Positions 7,422 through 37,911 of a stretch of DNA of 47,247 nt are shown piece by piece; the first letter of the stretch is position 1; each line of letters opens with the position of its first letter. The translations under genes and the position numbers were made by a program. The notes under the pieces were generated by a model that saw only the letters and a program-made list of their open reading frames with translations, had not been told where the DNA came from and did no database searches. This DNA is from Marivita sp. XM-24bin2 (GTDB lineage Bacteria > Pseudomonadota > Alphaproteobacteria > Rhodobacterales > Rhodobacteraceae): assembly GCA_003149565.1 (NCBI GenBank), contig QCWH01000029.1, positions 1 to 47,247 on the forward strand. Direction: 5' to 3'.

Positions 7422-7424
7422 GTC

Positions 7425-9398: not shown

Positions 9399-9436
9399 GA
9401 TCGGTGCAGAGCGAGCGCACCTTTCGGGAAAGGGAT

Positions 9437-9462
9437 GCGGCGCGTGGTATCCCACGCACCGC
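9437..9462 (-). other. intercistronic stem-loop between urtA and urtB
   Basis: On the transcribed strand the arms 9462-9452 and 9447-9437 pair over 11 positions, ten Watson-Crick and one G-U, around a four-base loop. A long T-run does not follow. Such hairpins after binding-protein genes often protect the upstream mRNA or reduce read-through, giving more binding protein than permease. The effect here is inferred. Confidence 0.6.
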
Positions 9463-9473
9463 GGATTGTTGTC

Positions 9474-11543: not shown

Positions 11544-11622
11544 GATTTTCCATCTCGCAAGTTAACACGACTGCGAAATCCGCTTTTTACAGAAGTGAGT
11601 CTTTGTTGCAGCAGGGCTTGCG

Positions 11623-12522
11623 TCAGCCCGTCATCCGTTGCCCAACGCCACGGACAATCGCGCCGACATCCATCAACTGATCAGCCAGCGGGTTGGATTT
11701 TCGCCATACCATGCCGATCGTGCGGTTAGGCCTTGGCGGGTCGAAGGTTGCTACTGAAACCTGGGCCGAGCGTGTCTCCAAAGGCACCGCCATCTCTGGG
11801 ATCAGCGTCACGCCCATACCGGAACCTACCATCTGCACCAATGTGGATAGGGAACTACCCTCCATTAATTGCCGTGGCTGGGTCTTGGTGATGTCACAGA
11901 ACGAGAGGGCCTGATCGCGAAAACAATGCCCCTCTTCCAAAAGAAGCAGCCGCATAGAGCGCAGCATTTGCGGGCTCGGGATAGGCTTGCCTGCGTCGGC
12001 CTGTGGTCTCACCAGAACAAAGTCTTCCTGAAACAGTGCGAACTCGCGAAGCGCGGGCTCCGAGATTGGCAGGGCCACGATCGCCGCATCGAGACGGGAC
12101 TCCAGCAAATCGGCGACAAGCGACTTGGTCACTGACTCACGTAGCTCAAGGTCGATATCGGGAAAGCGATTGGTCAGGGCAGTGATTGTTGCGGGGAGTA
12201 GGTAAGGTGCAACCGTTGGAATCACCCCAAGGCGAAAGCGTCCGGCAAACGGCCCTTGTGACGCACGCATCAAATCTTCCAATTCATCAACTGCTAGAAG
12301 CACCTCGCGTGCCTTGGCAACAAAGTCCTCGCCGATGGGAGTCAGTCGAACAATCCGCGCACCTCGCTCAACCAACAATACACCCGCCGCAGTCTCCAAT
12401 TCCTTGATCTGCAACGACAAGGCAGGCTGAGAAATCGCGCAGGCTTCCGCGGCCCGTCCAAAGTGTTGATGGCGAGCCAAAGCGTCGAAATACCGTAGTT
12501 GCTTGAAGGTCACTCCAGTCAT
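11623..12522 (-). CDS. oxyR: OxyR-type LysR transcriptional regulator
   Basis: A 299-residue LysR regulator with an N-terminal winged helix-turn-helix (FKQLRYFDALARHQHFGRAA and SQPALSLQIKELE) and a ligand domain from about residue 90. Residues 198-209 read GHCFRDQALSFC. This places Cys200 and Cys209 exactly where the peroxide-sensing Cys199/Cys208 pair of E. coli OxyR lies, so redox control is strongly indicated. It is divergent from katG, the classic OxyR target, with about 118 bases between start codons. No strong ribosome binding site precedes the chosen ATG. Confidence 0.93.
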   Translation of the reverse strand: MTGVTFKQLRYFDALARHQHFGRAAEACAISQPALSLQIKELETAAGVLLVERGARIVRLTPIGEDFVAKAREVLLAVDELEDLMRASQGPFAGRFRLGVIPTVAPYLLPATITALTNRFPDIDLELRESVTKSLVADLLESRLDAAIVALPISEPALREFALFQEDFVLVRPQADAGKPIPSPQMLRSMRLLLLEEGHCFRDQALSFCDITKTQPRQLMEGSSLSTLVQMVGSGMGVTLIPEMAVPLETRSAQVSVATFDPPRPNRTIGMVWRKSNPLADQLMDVGAIVRGVGQRMTG

Positions 12523-14821
<2,299 letters not shown>

Positions 14822-23756: not shown

Positions 23757-23816
23757 CCGCTGCACCACACCTCTCCCCCCAGAAATTTAATTCCGAATGC
23801 CTTGAAAGGACACACG

Positions 23817-25106
23817 ATGCCCAAGGACATGAATACTGTTTCCATCTTCGAACGTCGCGAAAGCGAAGCCCGCTCTTACTGCCGTGGCATGCCCGCGACC
23901 TTCGCCACAGCCAGCGGGTCCGAAATCACAGACGACACCGGCAAGACTTACATCGACTTTCTCGCCGGGTGCTCTTCACTCAACTACGGTCACAACGACC
24001 CCGACATGAAAACGGCGTTGATTGAGCACATCTCGAACGACGGGATTGCGCATGGTCTTGATCTGCACACTGACACCAAAGCCGCTTTTCTTGAGGCATT
24101 TGAAGAGCACATTCTCGAACCGCGTGCCATGGATCACCGCGTGATGTTCACTGGACCGACCGGCGCAAACGCGGTCGAGGCCGCAATGAAGATCGCGCGC
24201 AAGGTGACAGGCAGGACCAACGTCATCGCCTTCACAAATGGCTTTCATGGCGTGACGACTGGCGCCCTATCGGCAACCGGCAACAGCTACCACCGTGGTG
24301 GCGCGGGTATGTCGCTCAATGGCGTGACACGCATGCCGTTCGATGGTTTCTTCCCTGGAGAAACTGATACGGCTGAGTTCCTTGATGCGATGCTCAAGGA
24401 CAAATCTGGTGGTGTCGATGCACCCGCTGCGATCCTGCTCGAAACCGTGCAGGGCGAAGGTGGACTGAACGCGGCCAGCCCCGAATGGGTCAAGCGGATT
24501 GAAGAGCTCGCGAAGGAACATGGCGCGCTGCTCATCATTGACGATATTCAAGCCGGTTGTGGCCGTTGTGGCACGTTCTTCTCGTTCGAAGAGATGGGTG
24601 TCATGCCCGACATCGTGACGATGGCGAAATCCGTGTCCGGCTTTGGCCTGCCGATGGCTATGCTTTTGGTGCGCCCGGAATATGACATCTTTGGCCCTGC
24701 CGAGCACAACGGGACCTTCCGGGGCAACACCCATGCTTTCATTACCGCCAAAGTTGCAGTCGAAAAATTCTGGTCCGACGACAGTTTCCAGAAGGAGCTG
24801 TCTGAGAAATCCCAGCTCATCCACGATGCGTTGGCTGATCTGGCTGCAATGGTGCCGGATGCATACCTCAAGGGCCGCGGTCTGATGCAGGGTGTAGATG
24901 TTGGCTCTGGTGATCTGGCGGGCGAGATCTGCGCGCGCGCCTACGACAAGGGTCTCATCATCGAAACATCGGGCAGCGAAGACCAGGTTATCAAGGTGCT
25001 CGCACCTCTGACCACGTCCAAGGATACGCTGCGTAAAGGGTTCAACATCCTTCTCGACGCCGCGAACGACGTCCTGTCCGCGCCCAACAAAATTGCTGCG
25101 GAGTAA
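23817..25106 (+). CDS. ectB: EctB, L-2,4-diaminobutyrate transaminase
   Basis: A 429-residue class III PLP aminotransferase that makes L-2,4-diaminobutyrate from aspartate semialdehyde and glutamate, the first committed step of ectoine synthesis. [16 protein letters not shown] at the N-terminus, [15 protein letters not shown], and [18 protein letters not shown] are typical of EctB. The PLP-binding lysine is Lys271 in [13 protein letters not shown]. The ATG at 23817 is preceded by GAAAGGA with six-base spacing. A 60-base gap separates it from ectA. Confidence 0.97.
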
Positions 25107-25111
25107 CAGAC

Positions 25112-25513
25112 ATGATCGTCAGAGACTTCAACAAGATCGTCGAACACGAAAAAGACCGCGTCGTATCGGACGCCAACTGGACAAGCGTCCGCATGCTTCT
25201 GGCTGACGACAATATGGGCTTTTCGTTCCATGTTACCTTCCTCGAAGAAGGATCGGAGCACACATTCGAGTACAAAAACCACTTTGAAAGTGTGTACTGC
25301 ATGAAGGGCAAAGGTTCGATCACCGATCTGGCCACCGGTGAAACGCACGAGATCGTGCCGGGGGTGATGTACGCGCTCGACAAGCACGACCGCCATGTCC
25401 TGCGCGCCGAGGAAGAACTTGTGATGGCCTGTTGCTTCAACCCACCAGTGACCGGCAATGAGGTTCACCGCGAAGACGGGTCTTATGCCGCGCCGGAGAC
25501 CGAGGACGCTTAA
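25112..25513 (+). CDS. ectC: EctC, L-ectoine synthase
   Basis: A 133-residue cupin enzyme that closes N-gamma-acetyl-diaminobutyrate to ectoine. The N-terminus [19 protein letters not shown], the core [17 protein letters not shown] and [17 protein letters not shown] are all EctC signatures. The cupin metal-binding Glu, Tyr and His are present in these blocks. Length is normal for the family. It begins five bases after ectB and ends one base before ask. No ectD (hydroxylase) follows in this window. Confidence 0.97.
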
Positions 25514-25514
25514 G

Positions 25515-26939
25515 ATGACACACACTGTCGAAAAAATCGGCGGGACGTCCATGTCCCGCCTCGCGGAACTGCGCGACACGCTCTTCATCGGCGACCGCGC
25601 GAAAGCCGACGTTTACAATCGCGTCTTCGTGGTGTCTGCCTTCGGCGGCATCACGAACCTGCTGTTGGAGCACAAGAAATCCGGTGAGCCGGGTGTCTAC
25701 GGCCTCTTTAGCAACGACGACAGCAACCACAAATGGCAGGATGCGCTCGACCGTGTGGCTGAGGCGATGAAAGAGGCGCACGGAAAAATCCTAGACAAGC
25801 CGGCAGACATTCAACAGGCCGACAGCTTTGTGGACGAACGCATCCTTGGCGCGCGCAATTGCCTGATCGACCTTCAGCGCCTGTGTTCCTACGGCCACTT
25901 CCGCCTGCCCGAACACATGAGTCACACCCGTGAACTGCTCTCCGGTCTGGGCGAGGCGCACTCCGCCTTTGTCACGACCTTGATGCTTCAGCGGGCCGGT
26001 GTTGAAGCGCGATTTGTTGACCTTTCGGGCTGGAGAGATCAGGGGGATGTTTGTCTGGAAAAGCGCATCACCCAAGCGTTTGAAGGTATCGACCCCGCCA
26101 CCGAGATGCCCATCGTCACCGGCTATGCGCAATGTGTCGAAGGTCTGATGAACGAATTTGACCGAGGTTATTCCGAAGTCACGTTCTCACACCTCGCTGC
26201 CCTGACCGGCGCACGCGAGGCGATCATCCACAAGGAGTTTCACCTCTCCTCTGCCGATCCAAATCTGGTTGGTGAAGGGGCCGTGCGTAAACTGGGTCGC
26301 ACGAATTATGATGTCGCCGATCAACTGTCGAACATGGGGATGGAGGCAATCCACCCCAAAGCGGCCAAGACCTTGCGACAGGCGGGTGTGCCTCTCCGTG
26401 TAACCAACGCCTTTGACCCCGGCGATCCGGGCACGCTGATCGACGATCAGCCGGCCGACGAAGCAGCGGCCGAGATTGTCACCGGTCTCGACATCGTGAC
26501 GCTCGAAGTGTTCGAACAGGACATGGTCGGTGTGAAGGGCTACGATTCCGGCATCCTCGACATCCTGACCCGTCACAACGTGCGCATCGTGTCCAAGACG
26601 TCAAATGCCAACACGATCACGCACTATCTGGACGCCTCGCTCAAGACGATGCGTCGGGTCGAACGCGACATCGCCAAGATGTTCCCCGCCGCCGAGATCA
26701 CCAGCCGCCGTCTGGCCATGGTGTCGGTCATCGGGCGAGACCTCAACGGCCTGTCGGTTCTCACCCGTGGCCTGCAGGCGATCGCCAACGCTGGCTGCGA
26801 AGCCATTGGCGCGAGCCAAGGCCCACGCAATGTTGATGTGCAATTCGTGATGGATCGCGCCTCAGCCGACACCGTGATCAAGGCGCTGCATGAAGAGCTG
26901 ATCGAAAACGCGCCCACGCGGTTATCCCGCGCGGCCTGA
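25515..26939 (+). CDS. ask: Ask_Ect, ectoine-specific aspartate kinase
   Basis: A 474-residue aspartokinase with an amino-acid kinase domain (N-terminal VEKIGGTSMSRLAELRD, where most aspartokinases have KFGGTS) and C-terminal ACT domains (ISKTSNANTITHYLD region and the VIGRDLNGLSVLTRGL repeat). The middle has LTGAREAIIHKEFHLSSADP and MGMEAIHPKAAKTLRQAGVPLRV, a typical aspartokinase block. Ask_Ect enzymes are dedicated to ectoine and less sensitive to threonine feedback in studied bacteria. The start one base after ectC is preferred to an in-frame start inside it. Confidence 0.95.
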   Translation: MTHTVEKIGGTSMSRLAELRDTLFIGDRAKADVYNRVFVVSAFGGITNLLLEHKKSGEPGVYGLFSNDDSNHKWQDALDRVAEAMKEAHGKILDKPADIQQADSFVDERILGARNCLIDLQRLCSYGHFRLPEHMSHTRELLSGLGEAHSAFVTTLMLQRAGVEARFVDLSGWRDQGDVCLEKRITQAFEGIDPATEMPIVTGYAQCVEGLMNEFDRGYSEVTFSHLAALTGAREAIIHKEFHLSSADPNLVGEGAVRKLGRTNYDVADQLSNMGMEAIHPKAAKTLRQAGVPLRVTNAFDPGDPGTLIDDQPADEAAAEIVTGLDIVTLEVFEQDMVGVKGYDSGILDILTRHNVRIVSKTSNANTITHYLDASLKTMRRVERDIAKMFPAAEITSRRLAMVSVIGRDLNGLSVLTRGLQAIANAGCEAIGASQGPRNVDVQFVMDRASADTVIKALHEELIENAPTRLSRAA

Positions 26940-26941
26940 GC

Positions 26942-26976
26942 CCAAAAAACTCCGATGCCCGGTTCAGGGCATCGGA
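26942..26976 (-). terminator. terminator of the glutathione transferase gene, built partly from its last codons
   Basis: TCCGATGCCC (26951-26960) and GGGCATCGGA (26967-26976) form a perfect 10-pair stem with a six-base loop. On the minus strand it is followed by GTTTTTTGGG, a good rho-independent terminator. The right arm encodes the last residues of the transferase and the stop codon is in the loop. It also faces the end of ask, but there is no T-run in that direction. Confidence 0.85.
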
Positions 26977-27590
26977 ATATCCGTCACAAACTTTGGAACC
27001 TGATAGCCCTTCTGCACCGCAGGACGCTCTGCAATTCGCAGATACCAGTCTCTGACATTGGGAAACTCGTTCAGGTCAATCTCCTGCCATTCATACCGCG
27101 CGGCCCAGGGAAAGATCGCCATATCGGCGATCGTGTACGCTCCAGTGACAAAATCGCGCCCGTCCAACTGCGTGTTCAGCACGGTATAGAGCCGCAGCGC
27201 CTCTTTCCCATACCGCGCCTCGGCATAGTCCGACGTGCCCTTGTTGAACTTCAGGAAATGATGCGCCTGGCCCAGCATCGGGCCAAAGCCGCCCATCTGC
27301 CACATCAGCCATTCCATCATCTGCCAATACGCATCGCCTTCCGCCAGAAAGCGCCCATGCTTCTGCGCAAGGTAAAGCAGGATCGCCCCGCTCTCCATCA
27401 GGGACAGGCCATTGTCCTGATCGACAATTGCGGGGATCTTGTTGTTGGGCGAAATCTTCAGGAACTCCGGCGCGAACTGGTCATCCTTGCCGATGTCGAT
27501 GGAATGCACATTGTAGGGCACACCCAGCTCCTCCAGCAGGATGGACACCTTGCGCCCGTTCGGTGTGGTCCATGTGTATAGGTCGATCAT
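26964..27590 (-). CDS. glutathione S-transferase family protein, YfcG-like
   Basis: A 208-residue glutathione transferase closely resembling E. coli YfcG, a nu-class disulfide-bond oxidoreductase. The thioredoxin-fold domain holds DLYTWTTPNGRKVSILLEE (Thr9/Asn11 in place of a catalytic Ser or Tyr), ISPNNKIPAIVD and SLMESGAILLYLAQK. The C-terminal helical domain has MEWLMWQMGGFGPMLGQAHHF and YTIADMAIFPW. AGGA five bases before the ATG supports the start. It lies 24 bases after the ABC ATPase gene on the same strand, so it may be the last gene of that operon. Its substrate is unknown. Confidence 0.9.
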   Translation of the reverse strand: MIDLYTWTTPNGRKVSILLEELGVPYNVHSIDIGKDDQFAPEFLKISPNNKIPAIVDQDNGLSLMESGAILLYLAQKHGRFLAEGDAYWQMMEWLMWQMGGFGPMLGQAHHFLKFNKGTSDYAEARYGKEALRLYTVLNTQLDGRDFVTGAYTIADMAIFPWAARYEWQEIDLNEFPNVRDWYLRIAERPAVQKGYQVPKFVTDIPMP

Positions 27591-27614
27591 TCTGTCCTGC
27601 CTGTTTTACCGGGT

Positions 27615-28670
27615 TCACCGCAGCGCATTTCCCGTCGCCGCATCAAAGACGTGCAATGTGTCGAGCGCAGCCGTCAAGGTCACCTCCTCGCCTACCTCGG
27701 GCGGGGTCCGACCATCGGCCTTGGCGATCACCTCTTGCCCCTCGGCCCCGACATAGATCAGAGTTTCATGCCCCAGAGGTTCGCGTACTGTCACCGGCCC
27801 CCGCACCAGCGCAGGCCCATCGCCGGGATGCAGGTCTTCGGGTCGGACGCCCACCGTAACCGGATACCCGTCTGCTGCGTCCAGCCTCAGATCCAGAACT
27901 TCCCCCGACCCAAGCCGCAATCCGCCCTGCGCCACCGTTCCTGACAGCATGTTCATCGACGGCGCCCCGATAAACCGCGCTACAAAGGTGTTCGCGGGCT
28001 TGTGATAAACCTCAGCCGGGGTACCCACCTGCTGGATATGCCCGTCCTTCATGATCACGATCCGATCCGCCATCGTCATCGCCTCGACCTGATCATGGGT
28101 CACGAAGATGATCGTGTTGCCGACCCGCTGGTGCAGCTTCTTGATCTCCAGCCGCATCTGCGTCCGTAGCTGCGCATCAAGGTTCGACAAAGGTTCATCG
28201 AACAGGAACACCGCCGGATCCCGTACCATCGCCCGACCAATGGCAACCCGCTGCCGCTGACCGCCGGACAATTGGCTGGGCTTGCGCGCCAACAGGTCAG
28301 TCATTCCCAGAATACCTGCCACCTCGTCGATCCTCGCGTCCTTGTCGGCCTTAGACATCTTGGAGGTCCGCAGCCCGAAGCCGATATTCTTGCGCACGGT
28401 CATATGCGGATAGATCGCGTAGTTCTGGAACACCATCGCGATGTCCCGGTCCTTGGGTTCGAGGTTGTTGACCACCCGCCCGCCGATCACGATCTCCCCG
28501 CTGGTCGCGTCCTCCAGCCCCGCGATAAGCCGCAGCGTCGTCGATTTACCGCAGCCAGATGGTCCGACAAACACCACGAACTCCCCGTCTTCGACATCAA
28601 GGCTGATGCCATGCAGCACCTCGGTCTTGTCGTAGCGTTTGACCAGATTTCGAATCGCAAGATCGGCCAT
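27615..28670 (-). CDS. UgpC/MalK-type sugar ABC transporter ATP-binding protein
   Basis: A 351-residue ABC ATPase. It has Walker A GPSGCGKSTTLRLIAG, Q-loop MVFQNYAIYPHMTVR, ABC signature LSGGQRQRVAIGRAM, Walker B VFLFDEPLSNLDAQLR and H-loop FVTHDQVEAMTMADR. From about residue 235 an OB-fold TOBE domain follows, as in MalK and UgpC. It energises import through the two permeases encoded upstream. It starts two bases after the lyase-like gene. ATPases of this class are sometimes shared between sugar systems. Confidence 0.93.
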   Translation of the reverse strand: MADLAIRNLVKRYDKTEVLHGISLDVEDGEFVVFVGPSGCGKSTTLRLIAGLEDATSGEIVIGGRVVNNLEPKDRDIAMVFQNYAIYPHMTVRKNIGFGLRTSKMSKADKDARIDEVAGILGMTDLLARKPSQLSGGQRQRVAIGRAMVRDPAVFLFDEPLSNLDAQLRTQMRLEIKKLHQRVGNTIIFVTHDQVEAMTMADRIVIMKDGHIQQVGTPAEVYHKPANTFVARFIGAPSMNMLSGTVAQGGLRLGSGEVLDLRLDAADGYPVTVGVRPEDLHPGDGPALVRGPVTVREPLGHETLIYVGAEGQEVIAKADGRTPPEVGEEVTLTAALDTLHVFDAATGNALR

Positions 28671-28672
28671 GC

Positions 28673-30160
28673 TCAGTCCTTCATCAGCAGCGCAGCAAAC
28701 GCCGATTTCAGTCTCTGTTCCGCGGCTTCATGTCTGGTTTTGCGAGTGTCACACTTAGCCCGCGCCGCCTCCGCCTCCGCCGCGTACCCCGCCAAAGCCT
28801 CGCGCAACGCCGCCTCTCCCGGTCCACCAATCCGATCCCGTCGTGCAACAAATGTCTCCGGGGCAACCGCTGTCCGAAAGGCCGACTCGTCCAAGCCCGG
28901 CGCACGCCCGGTCTGCGCCTCGAACGCCGCCGAGAACGCCGCATACCCGTCGCCCAGAGCCGCCCCTTCGACAATCACCGCCTTCGCCGTCATTGCCGCT
29001 ACCTCATGCGCCGCGCGGAACGTTAGCCCTTCGTCCCGCACCAATGTGTCCGCCAATTCGGTGATGGTGATGCAAGCTGCATCCGTCGTTCGCCGCACCC
29101 GCTCCGCATTCACCCGACAGGCTGGAACCAGCGCCGTCAGCAATTGCAACACTCGGGCACCCCGTTCAAAGGCGGCATAACCCAACTGCTGCACCTCGCC
29201 TTCGCTGTCATTCATGTCGGTGAACGGCGTGTTCTGCATCACGCCCACGATGGCATCGCATTGCCCGACCGTCGCACTGGCGAGATGGCGCAAGTGTTCG
29301 ATCGGCACGGGATTGCGCTTTTGCGGCATGATCGAACTGATCTGCACAAGGCTGTTCGGGACATAAAGCTGCCCCACCTCGAACGCGGTCCAGAACTGCA
29401 TGTCCTGAATGACCCGCCCCAGATGCAGGAACATCAGCTTCATCGCCGAATAAAGCCCGGTCACGTAATCGACTGACGCGATGCAGCCATAGGAATTGAC
29501 CAGCGGCCCCTCGAACCCCAACAACTCCGCAACGCGTGCCCGATCAATCGGAAACCCGCTGGTTGTGATCGCTGCAGCCCCCATCGGGCAATGCTCAAGA
29601 CCATCCGCCGCCGCATTGAGCCGCCCGATGTCGCGCAATAGCACCTCGATCACTGCGCCAAGATAGTGCCCCCACGTCGTCGGTTGCGCCGGTTGCCCGT
29701 GCGTATAAGCGACAACCAACGTCGCCTTCTCCGACTCCGCCTTGGCAATCAGCGCCTCCGTTAAGGTTAACGCCTGCTCCAGAAGCACTGACACACGCCC
29801 ACGTAAGGCCAGTTTGAACAGCGTATGGTCCATGTCATTGCGCGACCGCGCTGTGTGCAAGGCGCCGCCCAGATCGCCCAAGCGGCGCTTCAACTCCGCT
29901 TCGACCAGAAAGAAGTAATCCTCGAACTCGCCGGTGTAACTCAGCGCATCAAGGTTCACTTCGACGTCAATATCTCGCAACGCCCCGGCAATCGCGCCAG
30001 CGTCCCCCAAATCCAAAATCCCGGTCTCCGCCAGCATCACCAGATGGGCCCGGTTGATCGCCGCCATGTGCTCCGAGTAATGCGCCTTCACCCCGTCAAA
30101 AAGCGGCGCCAGCACCGTGTCCCGATAGGTCGGGTCCGGAAACACGCTCTGGTCCGTCAT
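28673..30160 (-). CDS. argininosuccinate lyase-like enzyme (fumarase/aspartase superfamily), substrate uncertain
   Basis: A 495-residue member of the superfamily that splits N-substituted aspartates into fumarate and an amine. HTARSRND (His102 on), YTHGQPAQPTT (His154) and the mobile-loop signature SSIMPQKRNP (275-284) keep all catalytic residues. However, canonical argininosuccinate lyases continue as MPQKKNPD..E, whereas this reads MPQKRNPVPIEHLRHL, so the substrate is probably not argininosuccinate. It is also about 30 residues longer. It lies inside a sugar-type ABC operon, not with arg genes. EDDS-lyase-like enzymes are one related group to compare. AGGGGG upstream supports the start. 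Confidence 0.8.
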   Translation of the reverse strand: MTDQSVFPDPTYRDTVLAPLFDGVKAHYSEHMAAINRAHLVMLAETGILDLGDAGAIAGALRDIDVEVNLDALSYTGEFEDYFFLVEAELKRRLGDLGGALHTARSRNDMDHTLFKLALRGRVSVLLEQALTLTEALIAKAESEKATLVVAYTHGQPAQPTTWGHYLGAVIEVLLRDIGRLNAAADGLEHCPMGAAAITTSGFPIDRARVAELLGFEGPLVNSYGCIASVDYVTGLYSAMKLMFLHLGRVIQDMQFWTAFEVGQLYVPNSLVQISSIMPQKRNPVPIEHLRHLASATVGQCDAIVGVMQNTPFTDMNDSEGEVQQLGYAAFERGARVLQLLTALVPACRVNAERVRRTTDAACITITELADTLVRDEGLTFRAAHEVAAMTAKAVIVEGAALGDGYAAFSAAFEAQTGRAPGLDESAFRTAVAPETFVARRDRIGGPGEAALREALAGYAAEAEAARAKCDTRKTRHEAAEQRLKSAFAALLMKD

Positions 30161-30224
30161 GCACCGCCCCCTGCTTCTTCTTTTTCCAAATATGCAAACG
30201 CAACGACTACCAAAGAGATCACAC

Positions 30225-31103
30225 TCATCCCTTCAAGCCCGCCATCACCACACCCTGAATGATATACCGCTGGAAGATCAGGAACACGATCAGCGTCGGA
30301 ATGGTCGAAATCGCCGCCCCCGTCATGATCAACTCCCACGCCACATCGGCCTCGTCGCCAAAGGACGACAGGCCCACGGGCAGGGTATACATCTCGACAG
30401 AATTGGTCACGATCAGCGGCCAGATGAACGCGGTCCAGTTGCCGAGGAACACAAAGATCGCCAGGGCCGCCAGCGCCGGTTTCACCAAAGGCATCGCCAC
30501 GGTCCACCAGATCTGCAACTCGTTCAATCCGTCGATCCGTGCCGCTTCGATGAAATCATCAGGTACAGTCTCGAAAAATTGCTTCATCAGGAAGGTGCCG
30601 AAGGCCGTCATCAACCCCGGAAACATGATCCCCCAATAGGTGTCGAGCCACCCGAACTGCTGGCTCATCAGATACCACGGGATCACCAGCATTTCCGTCG
30701 GGATCATCAGTGTCGACAGGATCGCGATGAAGATGATGTAGCGACCCGGGAAGCGGAATTTGCACAGCGTGTAGCCGACGAGGCTGTCAAAGATCACATT
30801 ACAAACCGTCGTGATTACCGCGATGATCATCGAATTGACGAACCACCAGTAGAAACGTCCATCCTCGAGCACATAAGTATAATTCTCGATGTGTGGCTCA
30901 TCCGGGATCAGCTTGAGGTTATAGACCTCATGCGGCCATTTCAGCGACGTCGAGATCATGTAGGCGATGGGCATCACCATAGCCACACCGCCCAGGAACA
31001 GCAGCATCCAGCGTAGGATTTGTCCCATATTTGTGGGTTTCTTAGGCGCGTCGGTTTTGAGCAGCGCGTCAGTGGTCGGACGGATCTCTTCAGCGATTGA
31101 CAT
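30225..31103 (-). CDS. carbohydrate ABC transporter permease, MalG/UgpE type
   Basis: A 292-residue inner-membrane permease with six hydrophobic helices. The cytoplasmic EAA loop reads FIEAARIDGLNELQIWWTVAMPLVKP, the ATPase contact in MalG-type permeases, and the C-terminus VVMAGLKG is typical. Together with the other permease it forms the channel. The start at 31103 has GGAG eight bases upstream and is preferred to one 18 bases earlier. A pair of perfect palindromes lies just before it. Confidence 0.92.
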   Translation of the reverse strand: MSIAEEIRPTTDALLKTDAPKKPTNMGQILRWMLLFLGGVAMVMPIAYMISTSLKWPHEVYNLKLIPDEPHIENYTYVLEDGRFYWWFVNSMIIAVITTVCNVIFDSLVGYTLCKFRFPGRYIIFIAILSTLMIPTEMLVIPWYLMSQQFGWLDTYWGIMFPGLMTAFGTFLMKQFFETVPDDFIEAARIDGLNELQIWWTVAMPLVKPALAALAIFVFLGNWTAFIWPLIVTNSVEMYTLPVGLSSFGDEADVAWELIMTGAAISTIPTLIVFLIFQRYIIQGVVMAGLKG

Positions 31104-31121
31104 CAGCCCATCTCCGCGCAA

Positions 31122-31141
31122 AAGCGGTTTCGAAACCGCTT
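31122..31141. repeat. perfect 20-bp palindrome, copy 1
   Basis: AAGCGGTTTCGAAACCGCTT is identical to its reverse complement. It shares the core GTTTCGAAAC with a second palindrome 24 bases away centre to centre. It sits in the 83-base gap between the two permease genes, 18 bases upstream of the MalG-type start codon. Confidence 0.9.
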
Positions 31142-31145
31142 GATC

Positions 31146-31165
31146 AAGGCGTTTCGAAACGCCTT
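31146..31165. repeat. perfect 20-bp palindrome, copy 2
   Basis: AAGGCGTTTCGAAACGCCTT is also identical to its reverse complement and is a variant of copy 1 with the outer arms changed from AAGCGG to AAGGCG. Covarying arms with a fixed core point to a structured or protein-bound element. LacI-type operators of this general form are known, but no LacI gene is in the window. Confidence 0.9.
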
Positions 31166-31186
31166 CTCGCCAAGCCCAACCCGCAT

Positions 31187-32074
31187 CTAGCTGTCCCTCA
31201 GAATGCGCAGCTGGATCAGGCTCACCACCAGCAAGACAAGGAACAACACTACAGTCTGCGCCGCAGCGTATCCCATGTCAAAGGCGCTGAATGCGGTCTC
31301 GTAGATCATGAGAACCAGCGGTTTCGTAGAATTCAAAGGCCCACCGGGATTGTTCGTCGTCATGTTGAACACATGGTCGAAAATCCGCAGGAACCCGATG
31401 GAGGAGAACACGACGATAAACACGATGGTCGGCTTCAACAGTGGCAACGTGATTTCCCACAGCACTGTCCAGCTTGACACACCGTCAATCCGCGCCGCCT
31501 CGTAATAGCTGCGCGGTATGGCGCGCAGACCGGCCATGAAGATGATCACCTGAAATCCCAGCCCCGCCCAGACCGCAGGAGCCAGTACCGAGGGCAGCGC
31601 CCATGTCGTGGATTGCAGGAACGGGAACTGCGGGATGCCGATGCTCGCCAGCGCGTTGTTGAACAACCCTACCGGGACCGGCTGATAGAACCAGCGCCAG
31701 ACCCATGCCATCGCTACAGCGCTGGTCATGAAAGGCAGGAAATAGAGCATCCGCAGAAAGCCATGCATGAACCGCGTCTTGTCGAGGTGGTAGGCGATCA
31801 CGAACGAGATCACGAGGCTGATCGGTGTGCCCAGGAGAAGATAGACAAACGTGTTCTTGAACACCTTCCAGAACACCGGATCTGCAAAGAGCTTGTGGTA
31901 ATTGTCAAACCCGGTCCAGGTCCGGTCGCCCAGCAGGTTCCACTCCTGAAAGCTGATCAGGATGGCGTTGCCGGTGGGATAGAACCGGATGACCCCATAG
32001 AACAGAATCGGAATGGCAAGGAAGGCCCACGCCCAGACGATCTGTTTCTGCCGGATGGTCAGATTGCGATACAT
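31187..32074 (-). CDS. carbohydrate ABC transporter permease, MalF/UgpA type
   Basis: A 295-residue permease with six hydrophobic helices. The EAA loop is SYYEAARIDGVSSWTVLWEITLP, typical of MalF/UgpA-type permeases without the large periplasmic insert of E. coli MalF. It follows the binding-protein gene after a hairpin at 32095 and precedes the MalG-type permease by 83 bases. The substrate cannot be read from the sequence. Confidence 0.92.
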   Translation of the reverse strand: MYRNLTIRQKQIVWAWAFLAIPILFYGVIRFYPTGNAILISFQEWNLLGDRTWTGFDNYHKLFADPVFWKVFKNTFVYLLLGTPISLVISFVIAYHLDKTRFMHGFLRMLYFLPFMTSAVAMAWVWRWFYQPVPVGLFNNALASIGIPQFPFLQSTTWALPSVLAPAVWAGLGFQVIIFMAGLRAIPRSYYEAARIDGVSSWTVLWEITLPLLKPTIVFIVVFSSIGFLRIFDHVFNMTTNNPGGPLNSTKPLVLMIYETAFSAFDMGYAAAQTVVLFLVLLVVSLIQLRILRDS

Positions 32075-32084
32075 GCCTCAGCCC

Positions 32085-32123
32085 GAAAAAGGTGACGCCC
32101 CGGCCGGGAGAGAACCGGGGCGT
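32085..32123 (-). terminator. attenuator-like stem-loop after the solute-binding-protein gene
   Basis: ACGCCCCGG (32095-32103) and CCGGGGCGT (32115-32123) form a perfect nine-pair stem with an 11-base loop. On the minus strand CACCTTTTTCGGG follows, giving a T-run soon after the stem. It lies between the binding-protein stop and the first permease start. Partial termination here would lower permease expression relative to binding protein. Confidence 0.65.
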
Positions 32124-32136
32124 CCGTGCCGCGCGC

Positions 32137-33405
32137 TTAGTTGGACGCGCTGTTGTAGTATTCGTCGAGGATCTTCTGCTCGGCCTCTGCCGCAATGGCG
32201 AGGCTTTCTTCGGCGCTCATGCCTTGCAGTGTCATGCGCTCGACCATCTCCACCATCAGCTGACGCTGGCCGCTTTCATTCGCGAACTTGGTGGTGTTGG
32301 CATAAGCCAGACCTTTGATGAACGGACCAAACACCGGATCGCTCGAATTTTCCTCGGTCAGACCAACCGACGGTTTCGCCGGCAATTCGCCCACAACATC
32401 GAGCCAAATCTGCATCGCCTCATCGCTGGTGATGTAGTCCATGAACTTGACCGCCGCGTCGTACTTCTCGCCCTCGGCCTTGGTGGTGATCGCGTTCACC
32501 CAGTATGATGAATAGTTTGAACGCGTGCCGTCCGCCGTCGCAGGCAGCTCGGTCACACCCCATTTGAGCCCGCGCGTGTTGTTGAGCGAGCCGATGCGGA
32601 ACGATCCGTCGATATGCATGCCCGCACGACCTGCTTTGAACGCGGCCTGCGGCTCATCCATGAACCCGATCGCGGTCACGGCATCATCGCCGGTGAAGAG
32701 AGAGCTGTAGAAGTTCAGCGCCTCCAAGCCGGCCTCATTGTTGTAATTCACCGTCTGGTAGTCATCGACATAAGGCTCACCGCCGAACTGCCGGATCAGC
32801 CCTTCGCGCCACCAATGGTGGTCCTGTGCCGTCATCCCAGCGGTCATGCCAACCTGTGTCAGGTTTCCAGCACCATCGCGCTTTGTCATCGCCTTTGCTG
32901 CGGCAATCATCTCGTCCAGCGTGGTCGGCGGTTCTACACCGGCTTCTTCCAGCAGGCGCTCGTTGTAGAACAGGGCCAAGGATCGGACTGCGGTCGGCAG
33001 CGCCCAATAGGCGTCGCCATCCTTCATCGCCTGCACCATCGGAAAGAACTCTTCATCGATCTGGCTGGCCGGGAACACATCCGCTGGAAGAGGCTGGATG
33101 AGGTCAGCGGCGACGTAGTCATTCAGCCAGCCGTAGAACAACTGCACCACATCCGGGCCTTCGCCCGCCGGGATCGCTGCGGCGACCTTGGTGCGGTAAT
33201 CAGCATAGGGGAAATGGGTCATCTTGACGGTGATGTCCGGGTTCGCCTCCTGGAAGTTTTCGATGAGCGTTTCCATTGCCTGAACGCGGGCATCAAAGAA
33301 GTATTGCCAGTATTCGATTTCCACCGCCTGCGCGGCAGTGCTGAAAAGTGCAGCGGCGCTGGTTGCTGTCGCAACGGCCAGTGCCTTGACGTTGAAGAAT
33401 GCCAT
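32137..33405 (-). CDS. extracellular solute-binding protein, family 1 (sugar ABC type)
   Basis: A 422-residue periplasmic binding protein with a signal peptide (MAFFNVKALAVATATSAAALFS, cleavage near AQA-VE). The mature part starts VEIEYWQYFFDARVQAMETL and has the family pattern of MalE/UgpB-type proteins (AIPAGEGPDVVQLFYGWLND, ALPTAVRSLALFYNERLLEEAG, MHIDGSFRIG). It binds the transported ligand and docks on the permeases. AGGGAGAGG just before the ATG is a strong ribosome binding site. It is the first gene of the leftward operon and divergent from the ROK regulator. Confidence 0.93.
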   Translation of the reverse strand: MAFFNVKALAVATATSAAALFSTAAQAVEIEYWQYFFDARVQAMETLIENFQEANPDITVKMTHFPYADYRTKVAAAIPAGEGPDVVQLFYGWLNDYVAADLIQPLPADVFPASQIDEEFFPMVQAMKDGDAYWALPTAVRSLALFYNERLLEEAGVEPPTTLDEMIAAAKAMTKRDGAGNLTQVGMTAGMTAQDHHWWREGLIRQFGGEPYVDDYQTVNYNNEAGLEALNFYSSLFTGDDAVTAIGFMDEPQAAFKAGRAGMHIDGSFRIGSLNNTRGLKWGVTELPATADGTRSNYSSYWVNAITTKAEGEKYDAAVKFMDYITSDEAMQIWLDVVGELPAKPSVGLTEENSSDPVFGPFIKGLAYANTTKFANESGQRQLMVEMVERMTLQGMSAEESLAIAAEAEQKILDEYYNSASN

Positions 33406-33524
33406 GGACCTCTCCCTGTTGAGATCTGTTGAGTGTGCCAGCCTATTCTTGTTCGCGGCCGGTCATTCTCCAAGCGTTAACTCAACTTTCTTGAGTGTTC
33501 AAGTTTGGTGCGCTAAGCGAAAGC
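33406..33524. promoter_or_regulatory. divergent control region between binding-protein and ROK genes
   Basis: The octamer TTGAGTGT occurs twice in the same direction (33429-33436 and 33491-33498). The second copy is part of a dyad ACTCAA-CTTTC-TTGAGT at 33480-33496 and of an overlapping one, CTTGA-GTGT-TCAAG, at 33490-33503. A further TTGAG is at 33419-33423. These are candidate sites for the ROK regulator. The role is inferred from position. Confidence 0.5.
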
Positions 33525-34700
33525 ATGGTCACTACGCTGAAACCGCAACTCGGGGCCAACCCGGAACGTGCTCGCAGCCACAACAAACAGCTGGTTCTGC
33601 GCGCCATTCGGCATGTCGGAACGGCCGGTCGCGCCGAGATTGCGCGGGCCTCGGGCCTGTCCACGCAGGCGGTGTCGAACATTATTTCCGATCTGCTGCG
33701 CGAAGGCCTGCTGGTCGAACAGGGCGTGCGCAGCGCCGGGCGCGGATTGCCGGTCCAGCAATACGCGATCAAGCCCGACGGCGGTTATGCCTTCGGGGTC
33801 GAGGTGCGCCCGACAGCCGTGTTCATCGCCTTGGTTGATCTTGTCGGAACACCACTGCTGACCCAACGGACGCCCTTGGTCGATGCTCAAAAAGCCACCA
33901 TATTAGACACTGTTTCGGCCCAGCTCGACGACGCGCTGTCAAAAACGCACGTTCCGAAAGCGTTGCTGATGGGCGCGGGGATCGTCATGCCCGGTCCCTT
34001 CGGCGATACCGGTTTAACAGGAGCAGATTCCGAACTGCCCGGCTGGAATACCGGCGATCCGGCCGAGAGTTTTGCCAATGAGCTGGACCTGCCAGTCTTT
34101 GTTGAAAACGACGCCAACGCCGCAGCGATGGCCGAGCGGATGAACGGTGTCGCGCGTGGGTTGGATGATTTCGCCTATCTCTATTTCGGTCAAGGCCTTG
34201 GTCTCGGACTGGTTCAGAACGGTCAGGCGGTACAGGGCGCGTTCGGCAACGCAGGTGAGATCGGGCACATCACGGTGATCGTGCAGGACCGACCCGTGGA
34301 ACTCGAGACTGCGACCAGCCGTTTGTCTGTGCAGGCCTATCTGGCAGGGCAGGGAGTGACCGTGACCGATATGGACGATCTCAACAGTCTTTATTCCAGC
34401 GCAAACCGCCATTTGCTGGTGTGGTTGGATCAGGCCGCACAGGCCCTGTCCTCGGCCCTGTCGATCATCGAAAACCTGTTCGATCCGCAGACGGTGATCC
34501 TTGGCGGCGCGATGCCGGACGATCTCTTGGATCATATCATCGCCCACACCGTCTTGCCCGAACGCTCCGTCGCCAATCGACCCGACCGCACCCATCCACG
34601 TCTGATGCGCGGCACCTCTGGCCGCATGACGGCGACACTTGGGGCCGCCGCGCTGGTGCTGCACCAGGCCTTTACCCCCACCATCGCCGAAGCGAGGTAA
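33525..34700 (+). CDS. ROK-family transcriptional regulator
   Basis: A 391-residue protein with an N-terminal MarR-like helix-turn-helix (RAEIARASGLSTQAVSNIISDLLREGLLVE) and a ROK domain. The usual ATP-binding DxGGT near the domain start is replaced by VEVRPTAV. The zinc motif CxCGxxGCxE is absent after GEIGH (residues VIVQDRPVELE follow), so it is probably a sugar-sensing repressor without kinase activity. It is divergent from the binding-protein gene and two bases before the PIG-L gene. I take the ATG at 33525; a GTG 30 bases upstream would lie within the inverted repeat. Confidence 0.88.
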   Translation: MVTTLKPQLGANPERARSHNKQLVLRAIRHVGTAGRAEIARASGLSTQAVSNIISDLLREGLLVEQGVRSAGRGLPVQQYAIKPDGGYAFGVEVRPTAVFIALVDLVGTPLLTQRTPLVDAQKATILDTVSAQLDDALSKTHVPKALLMGAGIVMPGPFGDTGLTGADSELPGWNTGDPAESFANELDLPVFVENDANAAAMAERMNGVARGLDDFAYLYFGQGLGLGLVQNGQAVQGAFGNAGEIGHITVIVQDRPVELETATSRLSVQAYLAGQGVTVTDMDDLNSLYSSANRHLLVWLDQAAQALSSALSIIENLFDPQTVILGGAMPDDLLDHIIAHTVLPERSVANRPDRTHPRLMRGTSGRMTATLGAAALVLHQAFTPTIAEAR

Positions 34701-34702
34701 CC

Positions 34703-37036
34703 ATGCCGACTTCAGATCAGATCCGCCTTGAGCAGACCCGCATGCGCCCGCGTGTGCTTGACCTATGGTGGGCGCTGCGGCCGCTGCAATCGGTGGTGCG
34801 GCTGATGAACACCGGCGCGCATCCCGATGATGAGACCACCGCGCTGTTGGCCGCCATCAGCCTGCGTGATGGAATCAATCTTAGCTATGCCTGTTCGACG
34901 CGTGGCGAGGGCGGGCAGAACGACATCGGTACCGAAAGTGGCCCAGCGCTGGGTGCGCTGCGTACCCGCGAAATGGAGCGCGCCTGCGATCTGCTTAATA
35001 TGCGCCTCTATTGGCACGGCACCTCGCCCGACGATCCGATCCGCGATTTTCGCTTCTCCAAAAGTGGAGAGGAAACGATGGGCATCTGGGGTCATGATCG
35101 CCTGCTGCACCGCTTTGTCGAGATTGTGCGGACTGACCGCCCCGATATTATCCTGCCCACCTTCCTCGACGTGCCCGGCCAGCATGGCCACCACCGCGCC
35201 ATGACCCAAGCGGCACATGAGGTTATGGAGGCCGCCGCAAATCCCGATTTCCCGTCGAACCTGCCGCCGTGGCAGGTGTCGAAAATGTACCTGCCGGCAT
35301 GGTCCGGGGCAGGGCAGGCTTATGATGACGACCTGCCGCCGCCAGATGCCACGCTCACAATCGATGGTGCTGGCACAGACCCGATGTCGGGATGGAGTTA
35401 TGCCCGCATCGGCCAGATGTCCCGCGCCTATCACCGCACCCAAGGCATGGGGCGCTGGGTACCCGCGGGCCCCGGCAAGGATTGGCCGCTGCATCTGGCA
35501 GTCAGCCATGTTGACGGGCCAGACGATGCGCTGGACGCAGGCCTGCCGCAGACACTGGCCGATCTGGTCGAGATGGCACCGGATGTGAAACAAGACCTGT
35601 TGCTTGCGCATGGCTACATCACCGAAACCGTGTCTGCGTTTCCGCATGTGCGGCATATTGTGAAAACCGCAAAAAAGGCACTGCATCACCTGCAAAAGGC
35701 CCAAGCCGACGCACCCGAAAGCATTGCGCACCGCCTAGAGGCAAAACATCAACAACTCGCCCATGTTCTGCGTCTGGCGCTTGGCGTGGAGGTTGACGCC
35801 CGCACGCACCAAACTTGGCTCCGCCCCGGGGACATCACCGATGTCACGGTCGAGTTCGATGCCGGGGAGGCCAAAACCGCCAGCTACAGCCTCGCGCTCC
35901 CCTACGGCTGGTCCGAAGAAGACGGTCAGATCAAGATTTCCTCGAACGCCAATCAGACTGATCCCTATCGCGCCGAATATGATCCAGCCGATCCGCCACT
36001 GCCTCGGATCGAAATTCAGCTGGAGGCAACCACCGTGACGGTGCCGTTCGCCAAACCGCCGGTGATCTTGCCCGACCGAGCCGTGCTTATCGCGCCAGAT
36101 GTTGCTCTGATAAATCTCAAAACGCCCAAACGGTCGGTTTCCGTTGCTATCGCCGATGTCAGCCCCGCCGGGTCGCCTGTCAGCTTTGACCTGCCCGAGG
36201 GTTGGTCGATGGAGCAGGGCACCGGAGCGGTTGGAATCACCTTGCCGGACGACCCGGAACCGGGGCTCTATACCCTGCCGCTCTATGTCGGTGACGCCCC
36301 CGCGATGACTGAACAGCGCATTGCGTATGATCATGTCGACCCGACCGTCTACGCCCGCCCTGCTGCCCTGACCGTTCGGGTTTTGGATGTCGCGCTACCG
36401 CAGGCCAAGGTCGGCTATATCGGCAGCGGGCATGATGCGGTGGCCGACTGGCTAATGGCGCTCGGCGCAGACGTCACCGTGTTGACTGACGACCAAATCA
36501 CCAGCGACGACGCGCTAGCCGGGTTGGATACGATTGTCATCGGTATCTTTGCCCTTCGCTTCCGTGAGGGGTTGGTGACGGAAATGCCCCGTTTTCGCGA
36601 ATGGGTAGAACAAGGAGGCACGCTGGTGACCCTCTACCACCGCCCGTGGGACAACTGGGATCCAGACACTGTTCCGCCGCGTAGGCTGGAAATCGGCCAA
36701 CCCTCTCTGCGGTGGCGCGTGACCGATGCCGGAGCCGAGGTCACACATCTTGCCGACCACCCGCTGCTGTCGGAACCAAACCAGATCACCGCCGACGACT
36801 GGGAGGGCTGGGTCAAGGAACGCGGGCTCTACTTTGCCAAAAGCTGGGATGACGCCTACACGCCGCTGTTGTCCATGTCTGACCCCGGTGAAGACCCGCT
36901 GACCGGCGCGCTACTCACGGCCGACATCGGGAAAGGCCGTCACACCCATTGCAGCCTCGTCCTGCATCACCAGATGGCCAAGCTGGTGCCCGGTGCCTAT
37001 CGCCTGATGGCGAACCTGATTGCCCCTCGCCGATGA
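34703..37036 (+). CDS. large PIG-L deacetylase-type protein with C-terminal glutamine-amidotransferase-like domain
   Basis: A 777-residue protein in three parts. The N-terminal PIG-L/LmbE domain (about residues 30-270) has the zinc motif AHPDDE (His40, Asp42, Asp43) and a third ligand region GQHGHHRA (His161-His164), as in N-acetylglucosaminyl deacetylases. A middle region (about 290-550) looks like beta-sandwich repeats. The last 220 residues (KVGYIGSGHDAVADWL, then GLDTIVIGIFALRFRE and GGTLVTLYHRP) resemble a class I glutamine-amidotransferase fold without an evident catalytic Cys. It probably removes an acetyl group from an amino sugar or conjugate. There is no signal peptide, so it acts in the cytoplasm. 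It overlaps the EamA gene by four bases. Confidence 0.85.
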   Translation: MPTSDQIRLEQTRMRPRVLDLWWALRPLQSVVRLMNTGAHPDDETTALLAAISLRDGINLSYACSTRGEGGQNDIGTESGPALGALRTREMERACDLLNMRLYWHGTSPDDPIRDFRFSKSGEETMGIWGHDRLLHRFVEIVRTDRPDIILPTFLDVPGQHGHHRAMTQAAHEVMEAAANPDFPSNLPPWQVSKMYLPAWSGAGQAYDDDLPPPDATLTIDGAGTDPMSGWSYARIGQMSRAYHRTQGMGRWVPAGPGKDWPLHLAVSHVDGPDDALDAGLPQTLADLVEMAPDVKQDLLLAHGYITETVSAFPHVRHIVKTAKKALHHLQKAQADAPESIAHRLEAKHQQLAHVLRLALGVEVDARTHQTWLRPGDITDVTVEFDAGEAKTASYSLALPYGWSEEDGQIKISSNANQTDPYRAEYDPADPPLPRIEIQLEATTVTVPFAKPPVILPDRAVLIAPDVALINLKTPKRSVSVAIADVSPAGSPVSFDLPEGWSMEQGTGAVGITLPDDPEPGLYTLPLYVGDAPAMTEQRIAYDHVDPTVYARPAALTVRVLDVALPQAKVGYIGSGHDAVADWLMALGADVTVLTDDQITSDDALAGLDTIVIGIFALRFREGLVTEMPRFREWVEQGGTLVTLYHRPWDNWDPDTVPPRRLEIGQPSLRWRVTDAGAEVTHLADHPLLSEPNQITADDWEGWVKERGLYFAKSWDDAYTPLLSMSDPGEDPLTGALLTADIGKGRHTHCSLVLHHQMAKLVPGAYRLMANLIAPRR

Positions 37037-37911
37037 GCACAGACGCCCCCCGCGACAACCTCAAGGGGGGCGCGTGGCTGTTCGCCGACATGGCGCTGAA
37101 CATCTGGGCGCTGGGCATCGTCAAGGCGCTGGGCCTTGGCTATCCGGTGGCCCAGATCGTGTTCCTGCGGGCTGCCGTTGGCTTGTTCTTGCTGTCGCCA
37201 TGGATCTTCCGTAACCGCGCCGATTTCGCCCGCGTGCCGGACCTGCCGCTGCAGATCCTGCGCGTGGGGCTGAGCGTCGCCACCCTCACCGCCAGCTACT
37301 TCGCAATCGCACGCGTGCCGTTGGCTCTCTTCACGACGATGAACTTCACTCGTCCACTGGTGGTGATGGTGCTGGCCGCCCTCCTGCTGCGGGAACGGAT
37401 CGCACCGTCGCAATGGGGGGCTGCGGCGATAGCCATGATCGGTGTGATCATCGCCATTGATCCCGATGGCAAAGTACTTGGGCCGGGGTTGCTGGCCTTG
37501 GCGCTGGTCATCCTGACGGGTTCTGGTGCGGTGATCGTCACGCGGCGGTTGAGAGCGACGCCGACGATTGTGCTGATGACCGTCTACACCGTCGGTCTTG
37601 GCCTCTGCACCCTGCCATTCGCGTTCTGGTCATGGCAGCCGATCCCAACAGAGCACCTTGCCCCTCTGCTGGCCATCGGTGTGTTTGCACAAACCGCGCA
37701 GGCCTGTTTCCTGCGGGCGCATTACAACGGTGATGCCGGGGTTCTGTCAGTGCTTGGCTACATGAGCCTGCCTCTGTCAACGGCAGCCGGTTTCTTTGCG
37801 TTTGGCGAAACACCGACCATGCGGTTCTACGCAGGAAGTGCCATGGTTGTTCTGGCCGCCGCTTCGCTGACGGTGTCGCGGCGCAAGCGTCCTGTGATGC
37901 GGGTGCGGTGA
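37033..37911 (+). CDS. EamA/DMT-superfamily transporter
   Basis: A 292-residue protein with ten hydrophobic helices arranged as two EamA repeats. NIWALGIVKALGLGYPVAQIVFLRA and LFTTMNFTRPLVVMVLAALLL are typical first-repeat phrases; the second repeat starts near VLGPGLLALALVILTG. It is a drug/metabolite-type exporter or importer of unknown substrate. Its ATG overlaps the stop of the PIG-L gene (ATGA), so it probably serves the same pathway, perhaps to move a product. Confidence 0.88.
   Translation: MSTDAPRDNLKGGAWLFADMALNIWALGIVKALGLGYPVAQIVFLRAAVGLFLLSPWIFRNRADFARVPDLPLQILRVGLSVATLTASYFAIARVPLALFTTMNFTRPLVVMVLAALLLRERIAPSQWGAAAIAMIGVIIAIDPDGKVLGPGLLALALVILTGSGAVIVTRRLRATPTIVLMTVYTVGLGLCTLPFAFWSWQPIPTEHLAPLLAIGVFAQTAQACFLRAHYNGDAGVLSVLGYMSLPLSTAAGFFAFGETPTMRFYAGSAMVVLAAASLTVSRRKRPVMRVR

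Follow-up and report, generated by a model that had tools for sequence, protein, structure and literature searches.

The window analysed here is a 47,247-nucleotide stretch of the Marivita sp. XM-24bin2 genome (contig QCWH01000029.1, assembly GCA_003149565.1), in which nine genes at 26964-37911 encode a sugar-type ATP-binding cassette (ABC) transporter, a fumarase-superfamily lyase related to argininosuccinate lyase (ArgH), a PIG-L (LmbE-like) deacylase, a glutathione transferase (GST), an EamA transporter and a ROK-family regulator. Eight of the nine genes constitute a conserved module, and the GST stands outside it. We propose, with a probability of about 0.5, that this module serves to import a conjugate between an N-acylglucosamine and a C4-dicarboxylate, to deacylate it and to cleave it to fumarate and glucosamine. 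The genes, their conservation and co-occurrence, the operator, the lyase motif and the kinases and deaminases linked to the module in relatives are observed; the substrate, the reaction order and each step of catalysis and regulation are inferred.

In the proposed pathway, the CUT1-type transporter would import an N-acylated glucosamine, most simply N-acetylglucosamine (GlcNAc), carrying a malate-like C4-dicarboxylate substituent. PIG-L would strip the N-acyl group in the cytoplasm, and the ArgH-like lyase would eliminate the C4 unit as fumarate, freeing glucosamine (GlcN). A sugar kinase and a glucosamine-6-phosphate (GlcN-6-P) deaminase would then yield fructose-6-phosphate; some relatives have the corresponding genes within the operon or next to it, and the Marivita genome encodes a NagB-II homologue at another site. 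The ROK protein would sense the sugar and control both units from a shared operator.

Organization of the locus

The features of the locus are given below, with their occurrence in 35 lyase loci of other genera of the family, compared as stretches of 20 kb or shorter.

26964-27590, minus strand: YfcG-like GST, lineage-specific, outside the conserved module (YfcG model 199.6 bits, cut-off 332)
27615-28670, minus strand: ABC ATPase, UgpC/MalK subfamily (NCBIfam 487.8 bits, cut-off 432; 35/35 loci)
28673-30160, minus strand: fumarase-superfamily lyase of 495 residues, Lyase_1 and ASL_C2 domains, ArgH-related but distinct (Pfam, NCBIfam, fold)
30225-31103, minus strand: ABC permease 2, UgpE/MalG type, BPD_transp_1 (Pfam, NCBIfam; 35/35 loci; ATG start picked by inspection)
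31187-32074, minus strand: ABC permease 1, UgpA/MalF type, BPD_transp_1 (Pfam, NCBIfam; 35/35 loci)
32137-33405, minus strand: solute-binding protein (SBP), SBP_bac_8/1, first gene of its unit (Pfam 140.9 bits; 35/35 loci)
33477-33499, no strand: candidate operator dyad TTAACTCAA-CTTTC-TTGAGTGTT, located between the divergent units (it departs from the consensus at 3 of its 18 dyad positions)
33525-34700, plus strand: ROK-family regulator (ROK 108.2 bits; 28/35 loci)
34703-37036, plus strand: PIG-L (LmbE-like) deacylase of 777 residues (Pfam PF02585 63.4 bits, cut-off 28.2; 34/35 loci)
37033-37911, plus strand: EamA/DMT-family transporter, optional member (Pfam; 17/35 loci)

The locus is carried by contig C29 of a 4.43-Mb genome in 116 contigs. 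As described in the initial annotation, all nine genes are open reading frames (ORFs) of the named families and form two divergent units, with the order SBP, permease, permease, lyase, ATPase and GST on the minus strand and ROK, PIG-L and EamA on the plus strand. By inspection, PIG-L probably starts at 34703, yielding 777 residues rather than the 871 of the mechanical ORF, the ROK gene probably starts at ATG 33525 (the mechanical ORF begins at GTG 33495, within the operator), and EamA probably starts at 37033, in an ATGA overlap with PIG-L. The UgpC/MalK-type ATPase with its TOBE domain, the two BPD permeases and the SBP characterize a CUT1 sugar importer; the best solved match of the SBP is the acarbose/maltose-binding protein GacH.

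Conservation and co-occurrence of the lyase and PIG-L genes

We sampled the family with one genome per genus (248 genomes). Lyases with at least 48% identity to that of the window are present in 36 of them, Marivita and 35 others, and they are sharply set apart: their identities range from 48 to 76%, against at most 36% for the other matches listed, as expected for ArgH. The SBP, both permeases, the lyase and the ATPase occur together in each of the 35 other genera, accompanied by PIG-L in 34, a divergent ROK gene in 28 and EamA in 17. PIG-L has 36 matches in the family, 35 of them in lyase genomes and one a fragment in genome G227. The initial annotation had made its shared pathway depend on the co-occurrence of these two genes, and this prediction held: 35 genera have both and two have one without the other, namely the lyase in G026 and the PIG-L fragment in G227, and neither is found in the remaining 211 (Fisher p = 2.6e-40, a value inflated by shared ancestry). 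The G227 fragment (G227:C41:11146-11448) encodes a 102-residue PIG-L piece with 65% identity and an internal TAG, in a genome without a lyase orthologue; it is likely the relic of a lost copy.

Dereplication at 90% lyase identity reduced a broader collection of 135 loci to 108, 84 of them untruncated; this set of 84 includes neither the short loci L152-L166 nor the Deinococcus and Cereibacter groups, which are distant. PIG-L is present in 76 of the 84 loci and EamA in 43. The lyases of the eight loci without PIG-L share 51-62% identity with that of the window; one of these loci is L188, whose genome (G281) encodes PIG-L at another site. Among 80 named loci, 76 carry PIG-L and the other four (L084, L103, L107 and L122) end before the PIG-L side. 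All 21 plasmid records with PIG-L also have the lyase. At higher ranks the distribution is patchy, with the lyase in 12 of 385 class genomes and 6 of 398 phylum genomes, two samples that share the Marivita genome and G497. The closest named matches include lyases of Marivita sp. (94%) and uncultured Marivita (91%). The lyase family is sharply delimited; it belongs to Alphaproteobacteria from sea and soil, and Deinococcus carries a distant branch of it.

The initial annotation had counted the GST as part of the set, which did not survive the comparison. No GST was found in the 35 homologous loci of other genera; GSTs with 92-96% identity occur in six Marivita-like loci (L071-L076) of the 80 named ones, and L137 has one further match at 27%. 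The GST occupies the position where most relatives carry a sugar kinase, and no PfkB match was found within the available stretch of L071-L076. The GST was thus ruled out as a core part of the pathway and stays a lineage-specific lead.

Clustering of 314 ORFs flanking the module in the 84 loci, called by a simple script and in some cases spurious, yielded eight groups that recur in three to six loci. The largest contains ABC ATPases (6 loci), and inspection revealed no thiol-looking family among the eight.

L070 (G136:C14), a 38% GC stretch within a genome assigned to the same family, harbours a complete diverged module with a lyase at 44-48% identity, PIG-L at 36% and NagB; it may have been transferred, or the contig may be foreign. 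In L185-L187 (G595, G519 and G423) the lyase and PIG-L genes are divergent, and L185 stops at the contig end.

The lyase differs from ArgH on the presumed leaving-group side

The lyase passes the NCBIfam argH model TIGR00838 narrowly (288.3 bits, cut-off 279.5), and as a result 22 of the 27 closest plasmid records (H1-H27) name it argH or argininosuccinate lyase. This naming is a systematic misannotation. The lyase is not the only ArgH candidate of its genome: a second gene (G000:C27:45312-46385) harbours the canonical motif YSKDMQEDKE. The window lyase is not the ArgH of this genome.

The lyase shares with ArgH, beside the superfamily and the TIGR00838 score, the segments RSRND, TH and SSIMPQK-NP (SSIMPQKRNP in the lyase), which we take to be the fumarate side based on the residue roles in ArgH. 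In an alignment of 109 sequences, RSRND 105-109, T153, H154, S275, S276, K281 and N283 are invariant. By contrast, the segment presumed to hold the leaving group, the arginine-side motif Y-N/S-K-D-M/L-Q-E-D-K of ArgH, is absent and replaced by N-T-P-F-T-D-M-N-D-S-E. The window lyase thus has F-T-D-M-N-D-S-E-G-E where its own ArgH has YSKDMQEDKE and solved ArgH proteins have YNKD(M/L)QEDKE. Positions N310, T311, P312, D315, M316, D318 and E320 of the new motif are conserved in 109/109 sequences, N317 in 108, F313 in 107, S319 in 104 and T314 in 103. V285 is likewise found in all 109, where the aligned wild-type EDDS lyase and ArgH have Asp. Unlike ArgH, the lyase has no arginine-pathway context.

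EDDS lyase is an ArgH-like enzyme with a catabolic role. The AlphaFold model of the window lyase (mean predicted local distance difference test score, pLDDT, of 80, weak in active-site loops) has EDDS lyase 6g3d as its best fold match (E 1.6e-21, 28-30% identity). The two nevertheless differ, as 6g3d and its relatives have YTQ and an Asp after KKNP, against YTH and Val in the window lyase.

PIG-L and its possible exchange with NagA

The metal motifs A39-H-P-D-D-E44 and G159-Q-H-G-H-H-R165 of PIG-L are invariant in 13 sequences. Its model (mean pLDDT 84) comprises an N-terminal metallohydrolase domain followed by helical, beta-sandwich and C-terminal alpha/beta regions, and inspection revealed no signal-like N-terminus. 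The first solved fold matches are MshB, diacetylchitobiose deacetylase and a Thermus protein, followed by GalB, BC1534 and Bacillus subtilis BshB, whereas a sequence comparison with solved structures returned diacetylchitobiose deacetylases only, with weak E-values (0.006-0.011). PIG-L resembles BshB, Bca, MshB and Mca in its domain and metal motifs, but with its 777 residues and extra domains it differs from them, and it scores far below the NCBIfam cut-offs (BshB2, 26.0 of 195.25 bits; MshB, 25.3 of 224.35; Mca, 26.6 of 277.15).

Of eight lyase genomes checked whole at E 1e-6, four yielded no PIG-L (G026, G964, G476 and G471). All four have NagA-like genes, three above the model cut-off and that of G964 at 181.5 of 225.65 bits. 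In G471, a genome only 70% complete, the lyase operon is surrounded by NagA (C69:9754-10875, encoded on the opposite strand), a kinase of the NagK type and NagB-II, and a gene of the Pfam EPSP_synthase family adjoins the kinase. Conversely, NagA was not found at E 1e-20 in 10 of 46 lyase genomes (G012, G014, G015, G040, G112, G136, G142, G211, G232 and G492), all ten of which have PIG-L. At least one of the two was found in each of the 46, PIG-L being judged from the loci for G595, G519 and G423. As chance alone would leave about 0.9 genomes without either, the pattern is no more than suggestive of NagA standing in for PIG-L where the latter is missing. If this exchange is real, PIG-L would remove an N-acetyl group, and the C4 unit could not be on that nitrogen. 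The initial annotation had proposed an N-linked aspartate or succinyl group. An aspartate on the C2 nitrogen of the sugar itself is hard to reconcile with a PIG-L/NagA step: as the C2 nitrogen must be acylated for these enzymes, the C4 acid would have to be O-linked (malate) or attached to a different nitrogen.

Kinases and deaminases point to an amino sugar

In 28 of the 35 loci the ATPase gene is immediately followed, in the same orientation, by a sugar kinase gene. It is of the PfkB type in 23 loci and of the ROK type in five (L064, L065, L067, L068 and L069), and we counted kinases by this position because the ROK-kinase query also matches ROK regulators. PfkB is found in 66 of the 80 named loci. 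A NagB-II-like SIS-domain protein adjoins PfkB in 6 of the 35 loci and NagB is nearby in 3; in the larger set, one or the other of these candidate deaminases is encoded in 16 of 84 loci. For one of the SIS proteins, a GlcN-6-P deaminase (8eol) ranks third among the solved matches (E 1.2e-56). The Marivita genome has a NagB-II homologue (45%) beside NagA on contig C16.

The occurrence of differing kinase types in one slot together with two deaminase families favours an amino-sugar product. The scheme of the initial annotation, in which an acetylated amino-sugar conjugate is imported, deacetylated and split to release fumarate, remains plausible, with its amino-sugar part supported by these linked genes. 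The module resembles GlcNAc operons (ROK/NagC, NagK, NagA and NagB) in its ROK regulator, its CUT1 transporter and the kinase and deaminase types of relatives, but it has PIG-L in place of NagA, and its transporter operon includes an ArgH-like lyase.

A candidate operator shared by both units

The ROK protein scores 24.9 bits with MarR_2 at its N-terminus, just under the cut-off of 27, and lies well below the NagC equivalog (87 of 650 bits). A consensus dyad, TTAACTCAA-N5-TTGAGTTAA, is present with at most 5 of 18 mismatches in the spacer between the SBP and ROK genes in 82 of 87 loci, among them the window; after composition-preserving shuffling, only 1 of 87 spacers has it. Because these spacers also served to derive the consensus, the first count is somewhat optimistic. 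A better control is that 78 of the 79 sites with at most four mismatches in the 108 dereplicated loci fall within this spacer. Window positions 33477-33496 agree exactly with the first 20 of the dyad, and the chance expectation for a dyad with up to three mismatches is 0.41 sites in the window. These patterns suggest that both units share one candidate operator for the ROK protein, which would be self-regulated.

Distant lyase lineages

Seven Deinococcus plasmid records encode a relative of the lyase, with 33-39% identity to the window lyase among the matches listed. The motif reads H-N-V/T-P-F-G-D-I-N-D, along with KRNPV, in three of them. All seven loci combine the lyase with an SBP and two permeases. 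In four of them, L210-L213, the same run of genes further includes ROK, a small PIG-L and a carbohydrate kinase, the kinase being PfkB by Pfam in all three examined. That this independent lineage, with its much diverged lyase, keeps such a gene set supports the proposed pathway. The four small PIG-L proteins fit MshB best (145-161 bits, cut-off 224) and then Mca (106-124), all below cut-offs. L211-L213 encode a second, large PIG-L with NEW3 and CBM9-like domains, whose N-terminus is signal-peptide-like in L211; similar stretches occur at or upstream of the annotated starts in L212 and L213.

A separate ArgH-like group is found in Cereibacter sphaeroides 2.4.1 pB (L206:1193-2050 and 5372-12549) and Rhodobacter capsulatus pRCB133 (L204:14431-15930 and L205). 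Its neighbours are an asparaginase, a polar amino-acid ABC transporter, a FrlB-like SIS protein (79.7 bits, cut-off 430) and, in the Cereibacter group, a FrlD-like kinase (116.5 bits, cut-off 247), possibly representing a fructosyl-asparagine route via an aspartate-type lyase. An Amadori route of this kind was considered for the window module, but this group differs in motif and neighbours.

Further distant ArgH-like lyases occur in L208:7920-11229 (Agrobacterium vitis plasmid) and L209:4125-9260 (Cupriavidus pinatubonensis p2), where they adjoin peptide-like ABC permeases, or an asparaginase and a tricarboxylate-type binding protein. Upstream of the module, the window harbours ectoine genes at 23802-26939, coding for a class-III aminotransferase (EctB-like), ectoine synthase (187.7 bits) and an amino-acid kinase; they are unrelated to the module.

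Weighing the proposed pathway and its alternatives

Several observations weigh against degradation of an N-acylglucosamine–C4 conjugate. Regarding the downstream steps, the window locus has no kinase gene, no PfkB orthologue was found in the Marivita genome, with only eight matches at 25-39% identity, 7 of the 35 loci have no kinase behind the ATPase, and 68 of the 84 have no deaminase in the module. The assignments are also below curated thresholds. Two SIS proteins have NagB-II NF046059 as best model, with 242 and 278 bits for a cut-off of 430, which none of the 46 lyase genomes reaches; NagB in relatives scores 222.5 bits for a cut-off of 236.9; and a BadF-type kinase further along in L190 reaches 246.7 of 370 bits with the NagK model. 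The PIG-L/NagA exchange rests on four genomes, and the count of zero genomes lacking both is close to the chance value of 0.9. As to the composition of the module, 27 plasmid records have a lyase of at least 52% identity, and 6 of these gave no PIG-L match; three Deinococcus loci have the lyase and transporter only. In L186-L187, an SBP_bac_5/Opp-type ABC transporter follows PIG-L and CUT1 genes were not found. The signal-like, CBM9-bearing PIG-L of Deinococcus hints at an extracellular glycan. Like the Opp-type transporter of L186-L187, which could also indicate a pseudo-peptide substrate, it speaks against small sugar conjugates in general.

If the pathway is as proposed, GlcNAc-malate, the bacillithiol (BSH) skeleton, would be the best-fitting natural candidate substrate. 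Tentatively, the module might be a dedicated route for scavenging bacillithiol-type compounds (bacillithiol, its conjugates or GlcNAc-malate), with the ArgH-like enzyme acting as a glucosaminyl-malate lyase that cuts a C-O bond. Polaribacter sp. MED152 is a marine bacterium. A BSH-type thiol was found in this strain, and such thiols are predicted to be very widespread (excerpt of PMC6282198). GlcNAc-malate is an intermediate of bacillithiol synthesis, made by BshA and deacetylated by BshB (excerpt of PMC4360819). The LmbE-like enzymes known by the time of one review act on N-acylglucosamine cores, and Bca presumably allows the GlcN-malate part of bacillithiol to be recycled (excerpt of a review, PMC4101496). 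No description of a recycling route for GlcNAc-malate or bacillithiol was found in the open-access literature, as covered by partly incomplete listings. Mycothiol was ruled out as a substrate, since its structure offers no C4 acid to the lyase.

An amino sugar with an N-linked aspartate or succinyl group, such as a Heyns product or an aspartate glycosylamine, cut by C-N elimination, is an unlikely substrate, but one that draws on the closest solved relatives, ArgH and EDDS lyase, both of which cut C-N bonds, and on the Cereibacter/Rhodobacter plasmid lyases with their asparaginase, FrlB-like and FrlD-like neighbours. It is opposed by the acylated C2 nitrogen that the PIG-L/NagA step requires, which places the C4 unit elsewhere, and by the invariant Val that replaces the Asp found after KKNP in wild-type ArgH and EDDS lyase.

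We regard as rather improbable the import of bacillithiol itself (Cys-GlcN-malate), its N-methyl form, its disulfide or an S-conjugate, in which PIG-L would be a Bca-like amidase releasing cysteine, EamA would export the cysteine, the Marivita GST would reduce the disulfide and the lyase would cut GlcN-malate. The literature above on LmbE-like enzymes, Bca and the spread of BSH-type thiols is in keeping with it, as are the fold matches of PIG-L to MshB and BshB, among others, the MshB-then-Mca ranking of the four small Deinococcus PIG-L proteins, below cut-offs though they are, and the YfcG disulfide-reductase type of the GST. Yet the NagA genes of PIG-L-less genomes point to an N-acetyl rather than an N-cysteinyl group, the GST is confined to one lineage, the eight recurrent flanking groups include no thiol-looking family, and no paper in the open-access literature matched exact phrases on bacillithiol uptake or degradation.

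That the lyase is a redundant ArgH placed by chance within a sugar operon was rejected as highly improbable, since its passing of the argH cut-off and the argH names of the plasmid records are outweighed by the canonical-motif ArgH gene elsewhere in the genome, the sharp identity gap among the matches listed, the linkage to PIG-L and the replaced leaving-group motif.

Implications

The proposed pathway would replace the database name argH, for this lyase family, by a testable catabolic function, and it would indicate that amino-sugar–C4 conjugates really serve as nutrients. Were the enzyme shown to be a glucosaminyl-malate lyase, a function could be assigned to a large gene family that mostly goes by the name argH at present. 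Should the conjugate be GlcNAc-malate or bacillithiol, the natural recycling of the widespread bacillithiol thiols would become a question to address.

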